NCBI GenBank assembly: GCA_945952065.1
Contig: CAMFGY010000014.1
Span: 1 to 64,000, forward strand
DNA: 64,000 nt
Origin: an uncultured Burkholderiales bacterium
Lineage (GTDB): Bacteria; Pseudomonadota; Gammaproteobacteria; Burkholderiales; Burkholderiaceae_C
Reading direction: 5' to 3'
Shown piece by piece: positions 1 to 9,947 of the stretch. The notes under the pieces were generated by a model. It saw only the letters and a list, made by a program, of their open reading frames with translations. It ran no database searches and was not told the DNA's origin. Position numbers and translations under genes: made by a program. Position 1 is the stretch's first letter; each line of letters begins with the position of its first letter.

Positions 1-118
<118 letters not shown>

Positions 119-579
119 TGACTAAAAAGCGTTAACTTCCAACATGCACTGAATTTTATATGGCTGCACTTGTTCTCTTAATTTTGGATAATGAAGGGTA
201 TACGAGATGGCCGAATTCATGCAGGACTTTGCAAGTTCAATCGCAATTGGTTTGCTTGCATTCCTTGTTTCTAAAGCCTTGCTGATGTATGTGAGAAAAG
301 TCGCGAAAGTAAGGTTTCAGGGTGGTTGCGTGACCGGGTTTCGGTCATCAGTTCATCATTTCAGTCTCGCTGTCGATAACCATACAAAGGTAATTTTGGT
401 TAGTTTTGTGCTGTAGCGTCGCGCGTTGTTGGAATGGGTGCTGGAGCCAGTCTTGGTAGTTTCTGGCTCTGCAAATATTCTGATCACTTCGCCTGTGAAT
501 TCAGCCAACCCGGGAGGCTGAAAGGCGAGAGTGGTGGATGCTTGCCGGACGCCTTTCGGCATATTTTTAGGAATACAAA
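119..579. other. AT-richer stretch without a confidently identified gene
   Basis: This stretch separates the repeat tail from the double-glycine peptide gene and is visibly AT-richer than the rest of the window. It holds the weak small ORF listed at 207-416. A second 57-codon ORF at 434-607 would run across the start of the next gene in another frame. AT-rich hexamers such as TTAACT (132-137) and TATATG (157-162) could belong to a promoter, but I cannot choose one with confidence. No tRNA or strong hairpin is apparent. Confidence 0.5.
207..416 (+). CDS. Small putative membrane protein (hypothetical)
   Basis: A 69-codon ORF with a plausible ribosome-binding site (AAGGG at 194-198, eight bases before ATG). 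The N-terminal third contains one hydrophobic stretch (about residues 10-29) followed by basic residues (RKVAKVR), as expected of a single-pass inner-membrane peptide. The C-terminal half has no recognisable pattern. It has no double-glycine leader. Position beside a bacteriocin-like gene would allow an accessory or immunity role, but no family is recognised. The low-GC composition makes chance ORFs more likely, so it is reported tentatively. Confidence 0.3.
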   Translation: MAEFMQDFASSIAIGLLAFLVSKALLMYVRKVAKVRFQGGCVTGFRSSVHHFSLAVDNHTKVILVSFVL

Positions 580-813
580 ATGGCAACTTCTGAGATCCTC
601 TCCGTAGCCGAGCTTGAGAGTATCGGCGGCGGACTAGATGGGTGGGGGTTCACCGGGGCGGTTCTGGCAATCGGCGCCTGCACGATCGCTGTAGCGACCG
701 CAACGGTTTGGGGTGCTGTCGGTGGTTTACATGCAATCGATGCAGTCGGTGCGGATGCGATGTCGATTTACGTGAGTGGGAAGACGAGGGAAAAGCCGAT
801 CGAATCCCGGTAA
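580..813 (+). CDS. Double-glycine-leader bacteriocin/microcin-like precursor peptide
   Basis: A 77-residue peptide whose first 18 residues match the classical double-glycine leader LSxxELxxIxGG without a mismatch (L7, S8, E11, L12, I15, G17, G18). Cleavage after G18 would give a 59-residue mature peptide. That peptide has a Gly/Ala-rich hydrophobic core with one Cys and a short basic/polar tail, typical of class II bacteriocins and microcins. AGGA sits about ten bases before ATG 580. The C39-peptidase ABC exporter that would remove the leader and secrete the peptide begins 590 bp downstream. The antibacterial function is inferred; other secreted peptides (signals, modified peptides) use the same leader. 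The mature part resembles no named bacteriocin I can recall. Confidence 0.75.
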   Translation: MATSEILSVAELESIGGGLDGWGFTGAVLAIGACTIAVATATVWGAVGGLHAIDAVGADAMSIYVSGKTREKPIESR

Positions 814-869
814 CCTGAAGTAAACATTAAACCAGTGCGGGCCTGCGTCCTGCACCGGTGGGGAATCAA

Positions 870-1238
870 ATGAACCTTGTGGAAAAAAAGCTCGAGTTTT
901 CGCGTAAACTCAATAAGGCGCTAGCACTCTTGCAGAGAGCAGGAATTTCTGAAGGCAACTATTGTCCACCCATGTACAAACTTTATTGGAAGGCAGGCTT
1001 GAGACTTCCGCCTCCCCATTTTTTGGGTTTTTTGGGGCATATTTTTATGGTGGGATTGCCCGTCAGTCTCAGCGTTTTGGGGTTTTATATAATGGCGAAC
1101 AGCCAAGATGAGTTTCGGTTGATTGATATTTTTGTATTGATGCTTGGTGTCGCCGTTTTTGTAGGGTTGGTGATGGCGAGCTATTATGAGTTGTCTCGCC
1201 GTAAACATAGATTGCCGACCTGGGCTGCTCTTGATTGA
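870..1238 (+). CDS. DUF6404-like small membrane protein, candidate immunity protein
   Basis: A 122-residue protein starting at ATG 870, preceded by a GGTGGGG ribosome-binding site; an in-frame GTG at 858 is possible but weaker. The cytoplasmic N-terminal region (about 1-45) carries a Tyr-x-Pro-Pro motif and then a Pro-Pro-Pro-His-Phe motif around residues 47-51. Two hydrophobic segments follow (about 56-76 and 86-106), with a basic C-terminus. The arrangement resembles the DUF6404 family as I remember it; function is unknown in that family. It lies between the double-glycine peptide and its exporter, where immunity proteins usually sit, so a self-protection role is inferred. Confidence 0.6.
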   Translation: MNLVEKKLEFSRKLNKALALLQRAGISEGNYCPPMYKLYWKAGLRLPPPHFLGFLGHIFMVGLPVSLSVLGFYIMANSQDEFRLIDIFVLMLGVAVFVGLVMASYYELSRRKHRLPTWAALD

Positions 1239-1416
1239 ATTGTTTTTACTGGATGTTCTGGCAAATGGCGCCGTCGACAATATTGTTGGGGATCATCATG
1301 GTGACTTTGTCGGGCCACCCATTGCTACCCTGATGGGATATGTGGTTTTTGCGGTGGCAGTTGCTGAGTCCTGTGTTTATCTGTACTGGCTGCTGCGTCG
1401 TCAATGCAACAACTAG
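1231..1416 (+). CDS. Small single-pass membrane protein overlapping the exporter start
   Basis: An ORF open across the gap between the DUF6404-like gene and the exporter, ending in TAG at 1414-1416. No in-frame ATG lies in the gap; a TTG at 1231 overlaps the upstream stop, another is at 1240, and a longer ATG (1186) would overlap the previous gene. The product has an acidic, His-containing first half, one convincing transmembrane segment (about 25 residues) and a terminal Arg-Arg, a good membrane-insertion signature. Its last 13 bases overlap the exporter start, which lacks a clear ribosome-binding site. Translational coupling would explain that and supports this ORF being real. The family is not recognised. 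Confidence 0.4.
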   Translation: MIELFLLDVLANGAVDNIVGDHHGDFVGPPIATLMGYVVFAVAVAESCVYLYWLLRRQCNN

Positions 1417-3578
1417 TCGGCCATTTCGTTCAGCGACAACGAGCTGCAATTCCCTTGAAACCTCTGCTTCAATCCGAATCCGCTGAATGCGGCCTGGCCT
1501 GCCTGGCCATGATCTGCATCGCGCATGGGCAGCAACAGGACCTGCCTGAACTGCGCCGCCGCTTTGCCGTTTCGCTCAAAGGCGCCAACCTGCGCCAGCT
1601 GATCGCTCACTCCGGCAGTTTGGGGTTCTCGTCCCGGGCTTTACGCCTGGAACTGGCCGAACTGGGCCAGTTGCAAACCCCCTGCATCCTCCACTGGGAC
1701 CTGAACCACTTCGTCGTTCTCAAGAAGGTTCTGCGTGGCGATAAGGGTGCAGTGATCCTCGATCCGGCAGTGGGCGAACGTCGCTTGTCCATGAGCGAGA
1801 TATCTCGTCATTTCACCGGCGTGGCTTTGGAGTTGAGCCCCAATGCGGAGTTCAAGTCCCAAGCCTCGGCGCCTAAGGTGTCATTGAGAACGTTGACCGG
1901 CAAGGTGATGGGGCTCAGGTGCTCGCTGCTGCAGATCTTTGCCGTGGCCGTTGTTTTGGAGATGTTTGCCATCGTGGCGCCCTTGTTCAACCAGATGGTG
2001 GTGGACGAGGTGCTCACATCGGGGGACCGGGATCTTTTGACGGTGTTGGTGATCGGCTTCGGGTTGTTGCTCGTGGTGCAAACGGCGATTGGCTTGGTTC
2101 GGTCTTGGATGGTGATGGTCTTGGGCCAGACGCTGTCCTTGCAATGGATGGGTAATGTGTTTGCGCATCTGCTGCGTTTGCCGGTGGACTACTTTGAGAA
2201 GCGCCATTTGGGGGACATCACCTCGCGCTTCGGCGCTGTCAGTGCCATTCAAAAGACCTTGACCACCGCCGCCATTGAAGCGGTGTTGGACGGGCTGATG
2301 GCTGTGGCCGCTCTGGTGATGATGCTGATCTATGCGCCGACCTTGTGCGCAGTCACCGTCACAGCAGTCGCCGCTTACGGGCTTTTGCGCTGGGCGGCCT
2401 ACCATCCCTTCCGTGATGCGGCTGCTGAGCGCCTGGTGGTCGCGGCGAAAGAAAGCACCTATTTCCTGGAAACCTTGCGGGCCATCACGCCGCTCAAGCT
2501 TTTCGGTCGGGAAGAGGAGCGCCGTGCCCGTTGGCAAAACCTGATCGTGGATGTGCAAAACCGCGATGTGCGCACGGCCAAGATGAGCATTGGTTTCACG
2601 ACGGCCAACACCTTCATCTTCGGGTTGGAGAACCTGCTGGTGCTGTGGCTGGGTGCCAAGCTCATCATGACGGGGCAACAGGCCGGTGCGGTGACGATGA
2701 CTGTGGGCATGTTGTTCGCTTACCTCAGCTACAAGGGCCAGTTCACCGGGCGGGTTTCCGCGCTGATCAATTACGCGGTGGAGTTGAAGATGCTGGGCCT
2801 GCACGCTGAACGCTTGGCGGACATCGCCTTGGAGCCTCCCGAGAAGGATGAATTGCCTGCCAACGACTTGAAACACTTGCAGCCCAGCATTGAACTGCGA
2901 GGGGTGAGCTTTCGCTACGGTGAAGGTGAGCCGTGGATTCTGCGCAATGCCAACTTTCGCGTGGAAGCGGGTGAGAGTGTCGCCGTGACGGGGCCCTCGG
3001 GGGCGGGTAAGACCACGCTGTTGAAGATTGCGCTGGGCCTGCTTAAACCCAGCGAGGGCGAGGTCTTGTTCGGTGGCATGCCGGTGCGCCAATTGGGGCT
3101 GCAGAACTTTCGGCGCCAGGTGGGCACGGTGATGCAGGAGGATGCTTTGTTGACGGGGAGCTTGGCCGACAACATTGCCTTTTTTGATGTGCAGCCCGAC
3201 CACGCGCGCATCGAGGCCTGCGCCAAGTTGGCTCAGTTGCATGAAGACATTTGCCGCATGCCCATGGGGTATCAGACCTTGGTGGGCGATTTGGGTTCAG
3301 GTCTGTCGGGTGGGCAAAAGCAGCGGCTCTTGTTGGCACGGGCCTTGTACAAAAAGCCGCGCATCTTGGCTCTGGATGAAGCGACCAGCCATTTGGATTT
3401 GCAAAACGAACGGGCGGTGACGGCCGCGCTCAGCCGCATGTCTTTGACGCGACTCATCATCGCCCACCGGCCCGAAACCATCGCCGGCGCGCAGCGGGTG
3501 GTGATGGTGCGCGAGGGGCAGGTGGTGGAACTGGCGCGCGCGGTCAGCGCCAGCAGCCCCGAAGGCGCCACGGCTTGA
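1404..3578 (+). CDS. Peptidase-domain (C39) ABC exporter for double-glycine peptides
   Basis: A 724-residue PCAT-type transporter that would cleave the leader of the peptide at 580-813 and export the mature product across the inner membrane. The C39 peptidase (about 15-150) has the Gln23 oxyanion residue, catalytic Cys29 (ECGLAC), His102 and Asp120. A six-helix ABC exporter domain occupies about 165-460. The ATPase domain has Walker A GPSGAGKTT (about 530-538), signature LSGGQ (about 633) and Walker B ILALDEA (about 653). Length and order match the LagD/CvaB family. In Gram-negative bacteria a HlyD-type adaptor and TolC are also needed; neither is visible here. The start overlaps the preceding ORF. 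Confidence 0.93.
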   Translation: MQQLVGHFVQRQRAAIPLKPLLQSESAECGLACLAMICIAHGQQQDLPELRRRFAVSLKGANLRQLIAHSGSLGFSSRALRLELAELGQLQTPCILHWDLNHFVVLKKVLRGDKGAVILDPAVGERRLSMSEISRHFTGVALELSPNAEFKSQASAPKVSLRTLTGKVMGLRCSLLQIFAVAVVLEMFAIVAPLFNQMVVDEVLTSGDRDLLTVLVIGFGLLLVVQTAIGLVRSWMVMVLGQTLSLQWMGNVFAHLLRLPVDYFEKRHLGDITSRFGAVSAIQKTLTTAAIEAVLDGLMAVAALVMMLIYAPTLCAVTVTAVAAYGLLRWAAYHPFRDAAAERLVVAAKESTYFLETLRAITPLKLFGREEERRARWQNLIVDVQNRDVRTAKMSIGFTTANTFIFGLENLLVLWLGAKLIMTGQQAGAVTMTVGMLFAYLSYKGQFTGRVSALINYAVELKMLGLHAERLADIALEPPEKDELPANDLKHLQPSIELRGVSFRYGEGEPWILRNANFRVEAGESVAVTGPSGAGKTTLLKIALGLLKPSEGEVLFGGMPVRQLGLQNFRRQVGTVMQEDALLTGSLADNIAFFDVQPDHARIEACAKLAQLHEDICRMPMGYQTLVGDLGSGLSGGQKQRLLLARALYKKPRILALDEATSHLDLQNERAVTAALSRMSLTRLIIAHRPETIAGAQRVVMVREGQVVELARAVSASSPEGATA

Positions 3579-9011: not shown

Positions 9012-9947
9012 ATGTCTACAGCCTATTTCAGCCACCCCGATTGCCACCGGCACGATATGGGGCCCGGCCATCCGGAATGTCCACAGCGCCTGGACGCGAT
9101 CGAAGACTGGTTGCTGGCCACCGGCATTGATCTGGCGTTGGATCGGCATGAGGCGCCGCAAGTGGAGATGGCAGCCATTGAGCGTGCCCACACCCATGGC
9201 TATGTGGCCGAGATTGGCGAACTGCTCAAAGGCTGCGCGGAGCGTGGCGACACCCGCGCGGTGGACCCGGACACGGTGGCCAATCCCCACACCTGGTCGG
9301 CGGCCCTGCGGGCGGCAGGCGCTGCGGTGCGGGCCACGGATTTGGTCTTGGACGGTGGCGCGGAGAACGCATTCTGCGCGGTGCGCCCGCCCGGCCACCA
9401 CGCGACGCGCGACCAAAGCATGGGCTTTTGCTTTTTCAATAATGTGGCGGTGGCTGCGCGTCATGCGTTGGACGATCGCGGCCTCAAACGTGTGGCCATC
9501 GTGGACTTTGATGTGCACCATGGCAATGGCACGGAAGACATCATCGCCGGCGATGAGCGCATCCTGATGGTGAGCCTGTTCCAGCATCCGCTTTACCCCT
9601 ACAACGGCGCCGTCCCCAAGGGCGAGAACATGGTCAATGTGCCAATCCCGGCCTACACCAAGGGGCCGGAGATTCGCGAAATCATCGAGGCCATGTGGAT
9701 GCCCGCATTGGAGCGCTTCAAGCCCGAGATGATCTTCATCTCCGCCGGTTTTGATGCGCACCGCGATGACGACCTGGGCCAGCTTGGGCTGGTCGAGGCC
9801 GACTACGAATGGATGACGATGCGCCTCAAGGATGTGGCGGCGCGCCATGCCAAGGGCCGCATCGTGTCTTGCTTGGAGGGCGGCTATCACTTGGACGCCT
9901 TGGCGCGCAGCGTCGGTGTGCACCTGCGGGTGCTGGCGGGAATCTGA
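9012..9947 (+). CDS. Histone deacetylase family protein (class II-like amidohydrolase)
   Basis: A 311-residue zinc amidohydrolase of the arginase/deacetylase fold. The start at ATG 9012 gives the family's usual beginning; a longer in-frame ORF to 8949 adds an atypical leader. Diagnostic motifs are the GPGHPECPQRL segment (17-27), RPPGHHA with His129/His130 as general base pair, VDFDVHHGNG with zinc ligands Asp167 and His169, and SAGFDAHRDD with the third ligand Asp248. Bacterial homologues deacetylate acetylated polyamines or lysine-type substrates; which one cannot be told here. It stands alone between the divergent moxR operon and mscS. Confidence 0.93.
   Translation: MSTAYFSHPDCHRHDMGPGHPECPQRLDAIEDWLLATGIDLALDRHEAPQVEMAAIERAHTHGYVAEIGELLKGCAERGDTRAVDPDTVANPHTWSAALRAAGAAVRATDLVLDGGAENAFCAVRPPGHHATRDQSMGFCFFNNVAVAARHALDDRGLKRVAIVDFDVHHGNGTEDIIAGDERILMVSLFQHPLYPYNGAVPKGENMVNVPIPAYTKGPEIREIIEAMWMPALERFKPEMIFISAGFDAHRDDDLGQLGLVEADYEWMTMRLKDVAARHAKGRIVSCLEGGYHLDALARSVGVHLRVLAGI

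Follow-up and report, generated by a model that had tools for sequence, protein, structure and literature searches.

Class II microcins (MccV, MccH47 and others) of the Enterobacteriaceae are described as precursors with an N-terminal signal of 15–18 amino acids ending in GG or GA (PMC10233263, PMC9746304), for which a core of about 60–90 amino acids is quoted, and they are accompanied by a C39 exporter, an HlyD adaptor and a small membrane protein adjoining the peptide. A comparable set, the mcbABCI locus of Moraxella catarrhalis, combines a membrane-fusion protein, an ABC transporter, a GG peptide and a small protein of 74 amino acids, whose gene overlaps that of the peptide and which was shown to confer immunity (PMC2761928). 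The locus considered here, from an uncultured Burkholderiales bacterium, has the same types of component, and its architecture agrees with the published description of class II microcins (PMC9746304, PMC10233263). Compared by description, it differs from mcbABCI in the size of the small protein and in the separation of its gene from the peptide gene. We analysed a window of 64,000 nucleotides that forms the start of contig C14, so nothing lies to its left on that contig; C3 below is a second contig of the same genome. The features at its left edge are as follows.

1–86, no strand: hexamer arrays, (GCCTGA)n at 1–55 and (GAGTCC)n at 53–86; contig C3 likewise ends in (GCCTGA)n
207–416, plus strand: ORF of 69 amino acids with a single hydrophobic stretch, lying between the hexamer arrays and the HlyD remnant
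417–521, plus strand: what is left of a duplicated HlyD 3′ end, corresponding to residues 412–445 of the HlyD on contig C3 (DNA alignment)
580–813, plus strand: peptide B gene, 77 amino acids, ATG start with AGGA upstream
580–633, plus strand: double-glycine leader of peptide B, 18 amino acids, read from the sequence, with the register compared with that of three relatives
634–813, plus strand: mature peptide B and stop codon, 59 amino acids, Gly/Ala-rich, with relatives in its own genome, Pelomonas sp. CA6 and Duganella radicis
870–1238, plus strand: DUF6404 (PF19942) protein, candidate immunity protein, 122 amino acids, two hydrophobic helices
1186–1416, plus strand: ORF of 76 amino acids overlapping the DUF6404 gene and the exporter, unsupported as a gene
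1404–3578, plus strand: C39-peptidase ABC exporter, 724 amino acids, C39 domain at about 1464–1847

A first-pass annotation had proposed a perfect double-glycine leader on a 77-residue peptide, and the sequence bears this out: the leader, MATSEILSVAELESIGGG, has L−12, S−11, E−8, L−7, I−4, G−2 and G−1, leaving a mature part of 59 residues. Peptide B was the sole match in the window under our GG-peptide criteria, which were widened with the four known family members in view; the recovery of all four is thus by construction and the scan is informative only in its negatives. It supersedes a narrower motif scan that recovered one of two positive loci (Duganella but not Pelomonas). None of the four peptides scored over the cut-off of a known bacteriocin model. 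Bacteriocin_IIc (PF10439) gave 9.7 bits (E 1.2) for the window peptide against a gathering cut-off of 27.1. The Microcin V model (PF17508, cut-off 27 bits), in a difference from the enterobacterial microcins, had no match to the window, C3 and Pelomonas peptides and scored 18.8 or 19.6 bits for that of Duganella. Daptide (NF041807; 14.2 of 40 bits) was rejected, as were other weak family matches, all under cut-off. The plasmid collection held no match to the peptide, and in viral contigs no relative of either the peptide or the DUF6404 query was confirmed. A structure model gave one long helix (mean pLDDT 66), which is too weak for use. A hairpin upstream of the peptide genes beat shuffled sequences for peptide A only (z −2.2; the others 0.5, −0.5 and 0.7) and terminator-like sites occurred less often than in shuffled sequence; both were set aside.

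The peptide family has four members, namely peptide B in the window, peptide A on contig C3 and one each in Pelomonas sp. CA6 and Duganella radicis, with leaders of 18, 18, 16 and 15 amino acids and mature parts of 59, 70, 67 and 50 amino acids, respectively. Two of the four (window and Duganella) thus fall under the quoted microcin range. Of the 29 invariant columns in the alignment, 25 lie in the mature part. The known loci of the family number three, all in Burkholderiales genomes, and each holds the peptide, DUF6404, HlyD and C39 exporter together, in two gene orders, with the DUF6404 gene 55–77 bases downstream of the peptide gene. The lack of a conserved linkage between exporter and peptide had been named beforehand as grounds for abandoning the bacteriocin interpretation; the two are linked in all three loci.

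The annotation had also predicted an HlyD-type gene to the left, and one is present at the end of contig C3 (HlyD_3, 50.8 bits), as well as being directly linked to the locus in Pelomonas and Duganella. On C3 the HlyD gene is followed by the paralogous peptide A, and the contig stops in the hexamer repeat with which the window starts. A four-unit hexamer pattern is confined to the end of C3, the start of C14 and C14:83400–83435. The remnant at 417–521 is 73.5% identical over 34 residues to the C3 HlyD; the 69-amino-acid ORF before it had no Pfam or NCBIfam match. The common repeat and the duplicated HlyD end suggest that C3 and C14 join here. Peptides A and B are probably the product of a tandem duplication of the HlyD 3′ end and peptide gene. 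They differ at 37 of 49 core codons, yet at only 15 residues; we give codon counts because dN/dS was method-dependent (0.19 or 0.56) and partly saturated. Two peptides of the same family in one genome, neighbours if the contigs abut and both bearing GxxxG motifs, could be taken for a two-peptide bacteriocin in which A and B act jointly. We regard this as very improbable, as the Pelomonas and Duganella loci have one such peptide apiece, and peptide B follows a duplicated HlyD 3′ end, as would be expected of a tandem duplicate.

Export of the peptide is well supported. The exporter contains Peptidase_C39 (111.7 bits), ABC_membrane and ABC_tran domains, and was rightly described as intact: Cys29, His102 and Asp120, together with Gln23, are aligned to identical residues in the peptidase structure 6mpz. 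It is 71% identical to the Pelomonas exporter, 51% to that of Duganella and 42% to a plasmid MchF-type microcin exporter; the genome also encodes, in a different cluster, an exporter that is, at 51%, as close as the Duganella protein. The NHLP bacteriocin exporter model (TIGR03796) gave 471 bits, with its cut-off of 853.3 not reached. The TolC-type OEP family (PF02321) has 36 matches in the genome, 35 of them over cut-off. In the scheme that we favour, cleavage after the double glycine would be the task of the C39 domain. Secretion would follow by way of the exporter, the HlyD-type adaptor and a TolC-like channel whose gene lies elsewhere. The mature Gly/Ala-rich peptide may then depolarise related bacteria by inserting into their inner membrane as a helix, whilst the two-helix DUF6404 protein in the producer's inner membrane might bind the peptide and block depolarisation. 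Membrane depolarisation, the principle proposed here, is shared with the ionophoric CDI toxins with their CdiI immunity proteins, for which a glycine-zipper motif has been reported; compared by description, these differ in forming the end of the large CdiA protein instead of an exported GG peptide (PMC11630599).

Double-glycine peptides do not always act on competitors. The Nap peptides of Neisseria are reported to drive autolysis without killing competitors (PMC11798529), and GG-motif proteins act in biofilm development in Synechococcus (PMC4997328). The exported peptide could likewise be a signal, or act on its own population in autolysis or biofilm formation, with DUF6404 as a membrane receptor or modulator. 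We consider this unlikely: the conserved part is a long hydrophobic Gly/Ala core with no short tip, no regulator was recognised between the genes at any of the three loci, and a gene resembling MchC of microcin H47 lies behind the Duganella exporter, which points to microcins. The window, C3 and Pelomonas stretches have no MchC-like gene.

The tentative DUF6404 assignment of the first-pass annotation proved correct, the protein being a true PF19942 member (91.5 bits against a gathering cut-off of 27.6, E 6e-26, profile positions 2–115 of 115). By its place directly behind the peptide gene in all three genomes it is the best candidate for producer self-protection, and in size and in having two hydrophobic helices it resembles the immunity proteins described (PMC9746304). 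The literature searched contained no paper on DUF6404 and no class II immunity protein of that name. A Foldseek search with the DUF6404 structure model returned 54 matches at E ≤ 10 (best E 2), none convincing. The alternative that the peptide is a microcin and DUF6404 a general membrane protein carried by chance in the cassette draws on the wide occurrence of the family: it matches 2998 of 72,556 plasmid records, none of the 15 other DUF6404 loci examined has such a peptide under the widened criteria, and on both IncFII plasmids examined (L023, L024) it lies straight after finO, in a stretch that contains neither a GG peptide nor an exporter. A statement that plasmid copies are mostly of IncF type behind finO would be too broad, as four contexts were examined, two of them IncFII. 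In addition, the reading frame of DUF6404 is broken in Pelomonas, where the peptide gene next to it is intact. However, DUF6404 adjoins the peptide in three of three loci even though the position of HlyD has shifted. In a tree the peptide-linked copies form a group (0.82), and all three have in common a G-[L/I]-P...G-x-Y motif, read by eye, that none of 12 others has. The IncFII proteins, 35–37% identical to the Duganella copy and 29% to that of the window, lack it. Together with the resemblance to known immunity proteins, this makes a chance passenger doubtful.

The annotation had placed two small membrane ORFs at the immunity position, of which only DUF6404 stands. The ORF at 1186–1416 had no family match. 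Searches of 199 other genomes of the family (E ≤ 0.001) and of the plasmid collection (E ≤ 1) gave no homologue, and the ORF was rejected as a second immunity gene. Acquisition of the whole locus had been proposed from its AT content, but within the window only the intergenic stretch 121–579 and the DUF6404 gene are clearly AT-rich (45% GC), compared with 58.5% for the peptide gene, 60.1% for the exporter and 63.3% for 3601–64000. The DUF6404 gene has 38% GC in Pelomonas (flank 71%) and 59% in Duganella (flanks 52% and 67%), while the exporters of the three loci lie at 60–65%.

In conclusion, we observe directly the component genes, the alignment of the catalytic residues and a linkage conserved across the loci; the probable product of this rare cassette is a small exported antibacterial peptide that acts on membranes. 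The relatives back the original proposal of a double-glycine bacteriocin-like locus with DUF6404 as candidate immunity protein. We put the probability at roughly 60% that it is a new locus of class II microcin type, an unmodified double-glycine bacteriocin with a membrane-inserting Gly/Ala core and DUF6404 as its immunity protein; killing by the peptide and the protective role of DUF6404 are the parts that we infer. It is conceivable, if improbable, that the whole DUF6404 family neutralises membrane-inserting peptides, providing cognate immunity in Burkholderiales and, on enterobacterial plasmids, a stand-alone shield against depolarising bacteriocins or the membrane stress of conjugation. A 2022 review gives Enterobacteriaceae as the source of every microcin confirmed by then (PMC10233263), with Serratia (PMC13101503) and Vibrio cholerae (cited in PMC13174018) added later as sources, and recognising immunity proteins from sequence is described as difficult (PMC9746304). 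Conserved in three Burkholderiales genomes, the cassette would add a new peptide scaffold from beyond these groups, and its named Pfam family in the place of an immunity gene would open DUF6404 to a direct functional test. The possible role of a family carried on so many plasmid records is the most interesting point of the locus.

Three genes lie close to the start of the window, which forms the first 64 kb of contig C14 in an assembly of 5.27 Mb:

580-813, forward strand: ORF of peptide B, a 77-residue double-glycine precursor, with an ATG start and an AGGA site upstream
870-1238, forward strand: DUF6404 (PF19942) ORF, 91.5 bits against a cut-off of 27.6; candidate immunity protein
1404-3578, forward strand: C39-peptidase ABC exporter, with all three of its domains found

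The leader of peptide B, MATSEILSVAELESIGGG, has the complete double-glycine register (L-12, S-11, E-8, L-7, I-4, G-2, G-1), and its removal leaves a Gly/Ala-rich mature peptide of 59 residues. In an alignment with 6mpz, a double-glycine peptidase of solved structure, exporter residues Cys29, His102, Asp120 and Gln23 are matched by the same residues, bearing out the first-pass annotation's claim of a perfect leader beside an intact C39 exporter. That annotation also proposed two small membrane ORFs: one is the DUF6404 gene; the other, the forward-strand ORF at 1186-1416, has neither a family match nor a homologue in the sets searched. The peptide B ORF was the sole match in 64 kb of a scan for a start codon, ribosome-binding site, acidic leader, hydrophobic −4 position, G-[G/A/S] and a hydrophobic Gly/Ala-rich remainder, criteria that were set with known family members in view.

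A search with the peptide located a paralogue, 66% identical to peptide B, at the end of contig C3, where the order in one direction is S9 peptidase, HlyD-type adaptor (HlyD_3), peptide A (88 aa), a (GCCTGA)n array and the contig end. Hexamer arrays occupy window positions 1-86, beginning with the same (GCCTGA)n repeat, and positions 417-813 are a diverged duplicate of peptide A together with the preceding 3′ end of HlyD. The HlyD-type gene anticipated just left of the window would be this adaptor, given a join of the two contigs. A four-unit repeat pattern occurs at three genome sites, the C3 end, the C14 start and C14:83400-83435; the third array is 83 kb inside C14 and on the opposite strand. 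If C3 and C14 abut, the gene order is that of the Pelomonas sp. CA6 locus (HlyD, peptide, frame-broken DUF6404, C39 exporter) plus one duplication. We infer such a join, by which the locus would read HlyD, peptide A, repeats, peptide B, DUF6404, exporter.

The Duganella radicis locus runs peptide, DUF6404, HlyD, C39 exporter and then an MchC-like gene. Peptide, DUF6404, HlyD and C39 exporter therefore occur together in all three loci, in two gene orders, and DUF6404 lies 55 to 77 bases downstream of the peptide each time. The Duganella DUF6404 is about 40% identical to the window copy; identity to the C3 HlyD is 49% for Pelomonas and 40% for Duganella, and to the window exporter 71% and 51%, respectively. 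A further cluster of the window's genome has an exporter with that same 51% identity to the window exporter, so exporter similarity alone is no marker of the cassette. This second cluster, on contig C1 (L019:8522-13090), comprises a regulator with a LuxR-like end (by eye), a GG-motif peptide of 55 aa with two APKSGW copies (about 9437-9604; no match in Pfam or NCBIfam searches), an HlyD-type gene 36% identical to the C3 HlyD, and the C39 exporter. A third C39 peptidase match (locus L020, C4:40192-40599; 65.2 bits) sits in a 272-codon frame that seems to lack ABC domains. The Pelomonas DUF6404 (L046:11637-11980; 38% GC in a neighbourhood of 71% GC) changes frame at a run of C, through either decay or assembly error.

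DUF6404 itself extends well beyond these loci: of 250 genomes in the family 8 gave a match (7 above cut-off), and of 369 in the class 9 did (6 above cut-off), own genome counted in both. The window copy matches 2998 of 72,556 plasmid records, chiefly from Escherichia (1799) and Klebsiella (943), and the Duganella copy 2 of 50,697 phage records. Among four plasmid contexts examined, two IncFII plasmids carry it directly behind finO (L023:6010-6357 and L024:6010-6357), with no GG peptide in a 2.5 kb scan. Eighteen DUF6404 loci, a set that leaves out three further weak matches of the class-level search, were scanned within 2.5 kb; the peptide was present in the three loci of this report and absent from the other 15, of which L018 falls below the family cut-off, L016 and L017 are partial, L013 and L063 lie near contig ends, and the two IncFII copies are 96% identical. 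For HlyD and C39 exporters these 15 gave nothing except a single generic ABC match, located at the border of locus L012. In a FastTree phylogeny of 15 sequences (without L016, L017 and L018, and with Pelomonas represented by its C-terminal part) the copies from the window, Duganella and Pelomonas form one group (0.82); read by eye, G-[L/I]-P...G-x-Y in the first membrane helix region is confined to these three among the tree sequences. Of five structural models, the best reached pLDDT 83 and the rest about 60; it shows a helix at 3-23 and long helices at 54-76 and 84-112, the latter two covering the two hydrophobic stretches; no structural relative of the model was found. A literature text search, with most subscription journals and preprints outside its coverage, returned no paper on DUF6404/PF19942.

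Besides the own genome, one of 399 genomes of the family, Pelomonas sp. CA6, holds a convincing peptide relative (7.0e-16). Some match at E ≤ 1 occurs in 221 of the 399, the next best (3.2e-4) inside a 542-codon frame, and none of the five further members of the window's genus in this set gave a convincing match. Two conserved patterns, which must be matched exactly and can therefore miss relatives, were scanned against a collection of genomes at species level. Of the 77 pattern matches, 2 lie in genes for relatives, one in Duganella radicis and one in Pelomonas sp. CA6, both Burkholderiales. A three-peptide profile matched the window's genome only among 399 genomes of the order; a four-peptide profile, which included the known Duganella and Pelomonas members, matched 1 of 74 Duganella-genus and 1 of 16 Pelomonas-genus genomes, each the known one. 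From these genome searches, the cassette looks rare and sporadic in distribution.

No known bacteriocin model reached cut-off for the peptides. Of the 29 columns invariant across four peptides, 25 fall in the mature part. Between peptides A and B, 37 of 49 core codons differ and 15 residues differ; for the 18 leader codons the figures are 12 and 8. This comparison of codon and residue differences points to selection on the peptide core. A hydrophobic stretch of at least 19 residues is present in all four peptides, and GxxxG motifs in all three tested.

The Duganella MchC-like gene (L047:12122-13918), directly behind the exporter, had no match in Pfam or NCBIfam searches; a search of the window, the C3 stretch and the Pelomonas stretch found no gene of this kind. 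It matches plasmid genes annotated as MchC protein (30.8% over 45% of the query), whose neighbours on one plasmid examined are HlyD, an MchF-type exporter and a colicin V family bacteriocin. MchC is described as a modification protein for MccH47 (PMC13101503), and by these matches the gene ties the cassette to microcin H47-type clusters. Class II microcin systems are described as having five components: precursor, immunity protein, C39 exporter, membrane fusion protein and TolC (PMC9746304, PMC10233263). Plant-associated bacteria have been screened for them (PMC13174018); the text of that study contains no Duganella, Pelomonas, Burkholder-, Comamonad- or Massilia. For microcin V, membrane depolarisation is reported (PMC11630599).

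That the C39 exporter cleaves off the leader and exports the peptide is well supported by the leader itself and the intact catalytic residues. The core composition, the position of DUF6404 and its size, together with the parallel to class II microcins, suggest that the mature peptide may act on the inner membrane and that DUF6404 may protect the producer. Activity is the defining property of a microcin. With a putative antibacterial activity, the locus is by analogy microcin-type: it would work in the manner of class II microcin systems, and it has most of their anatomical features.
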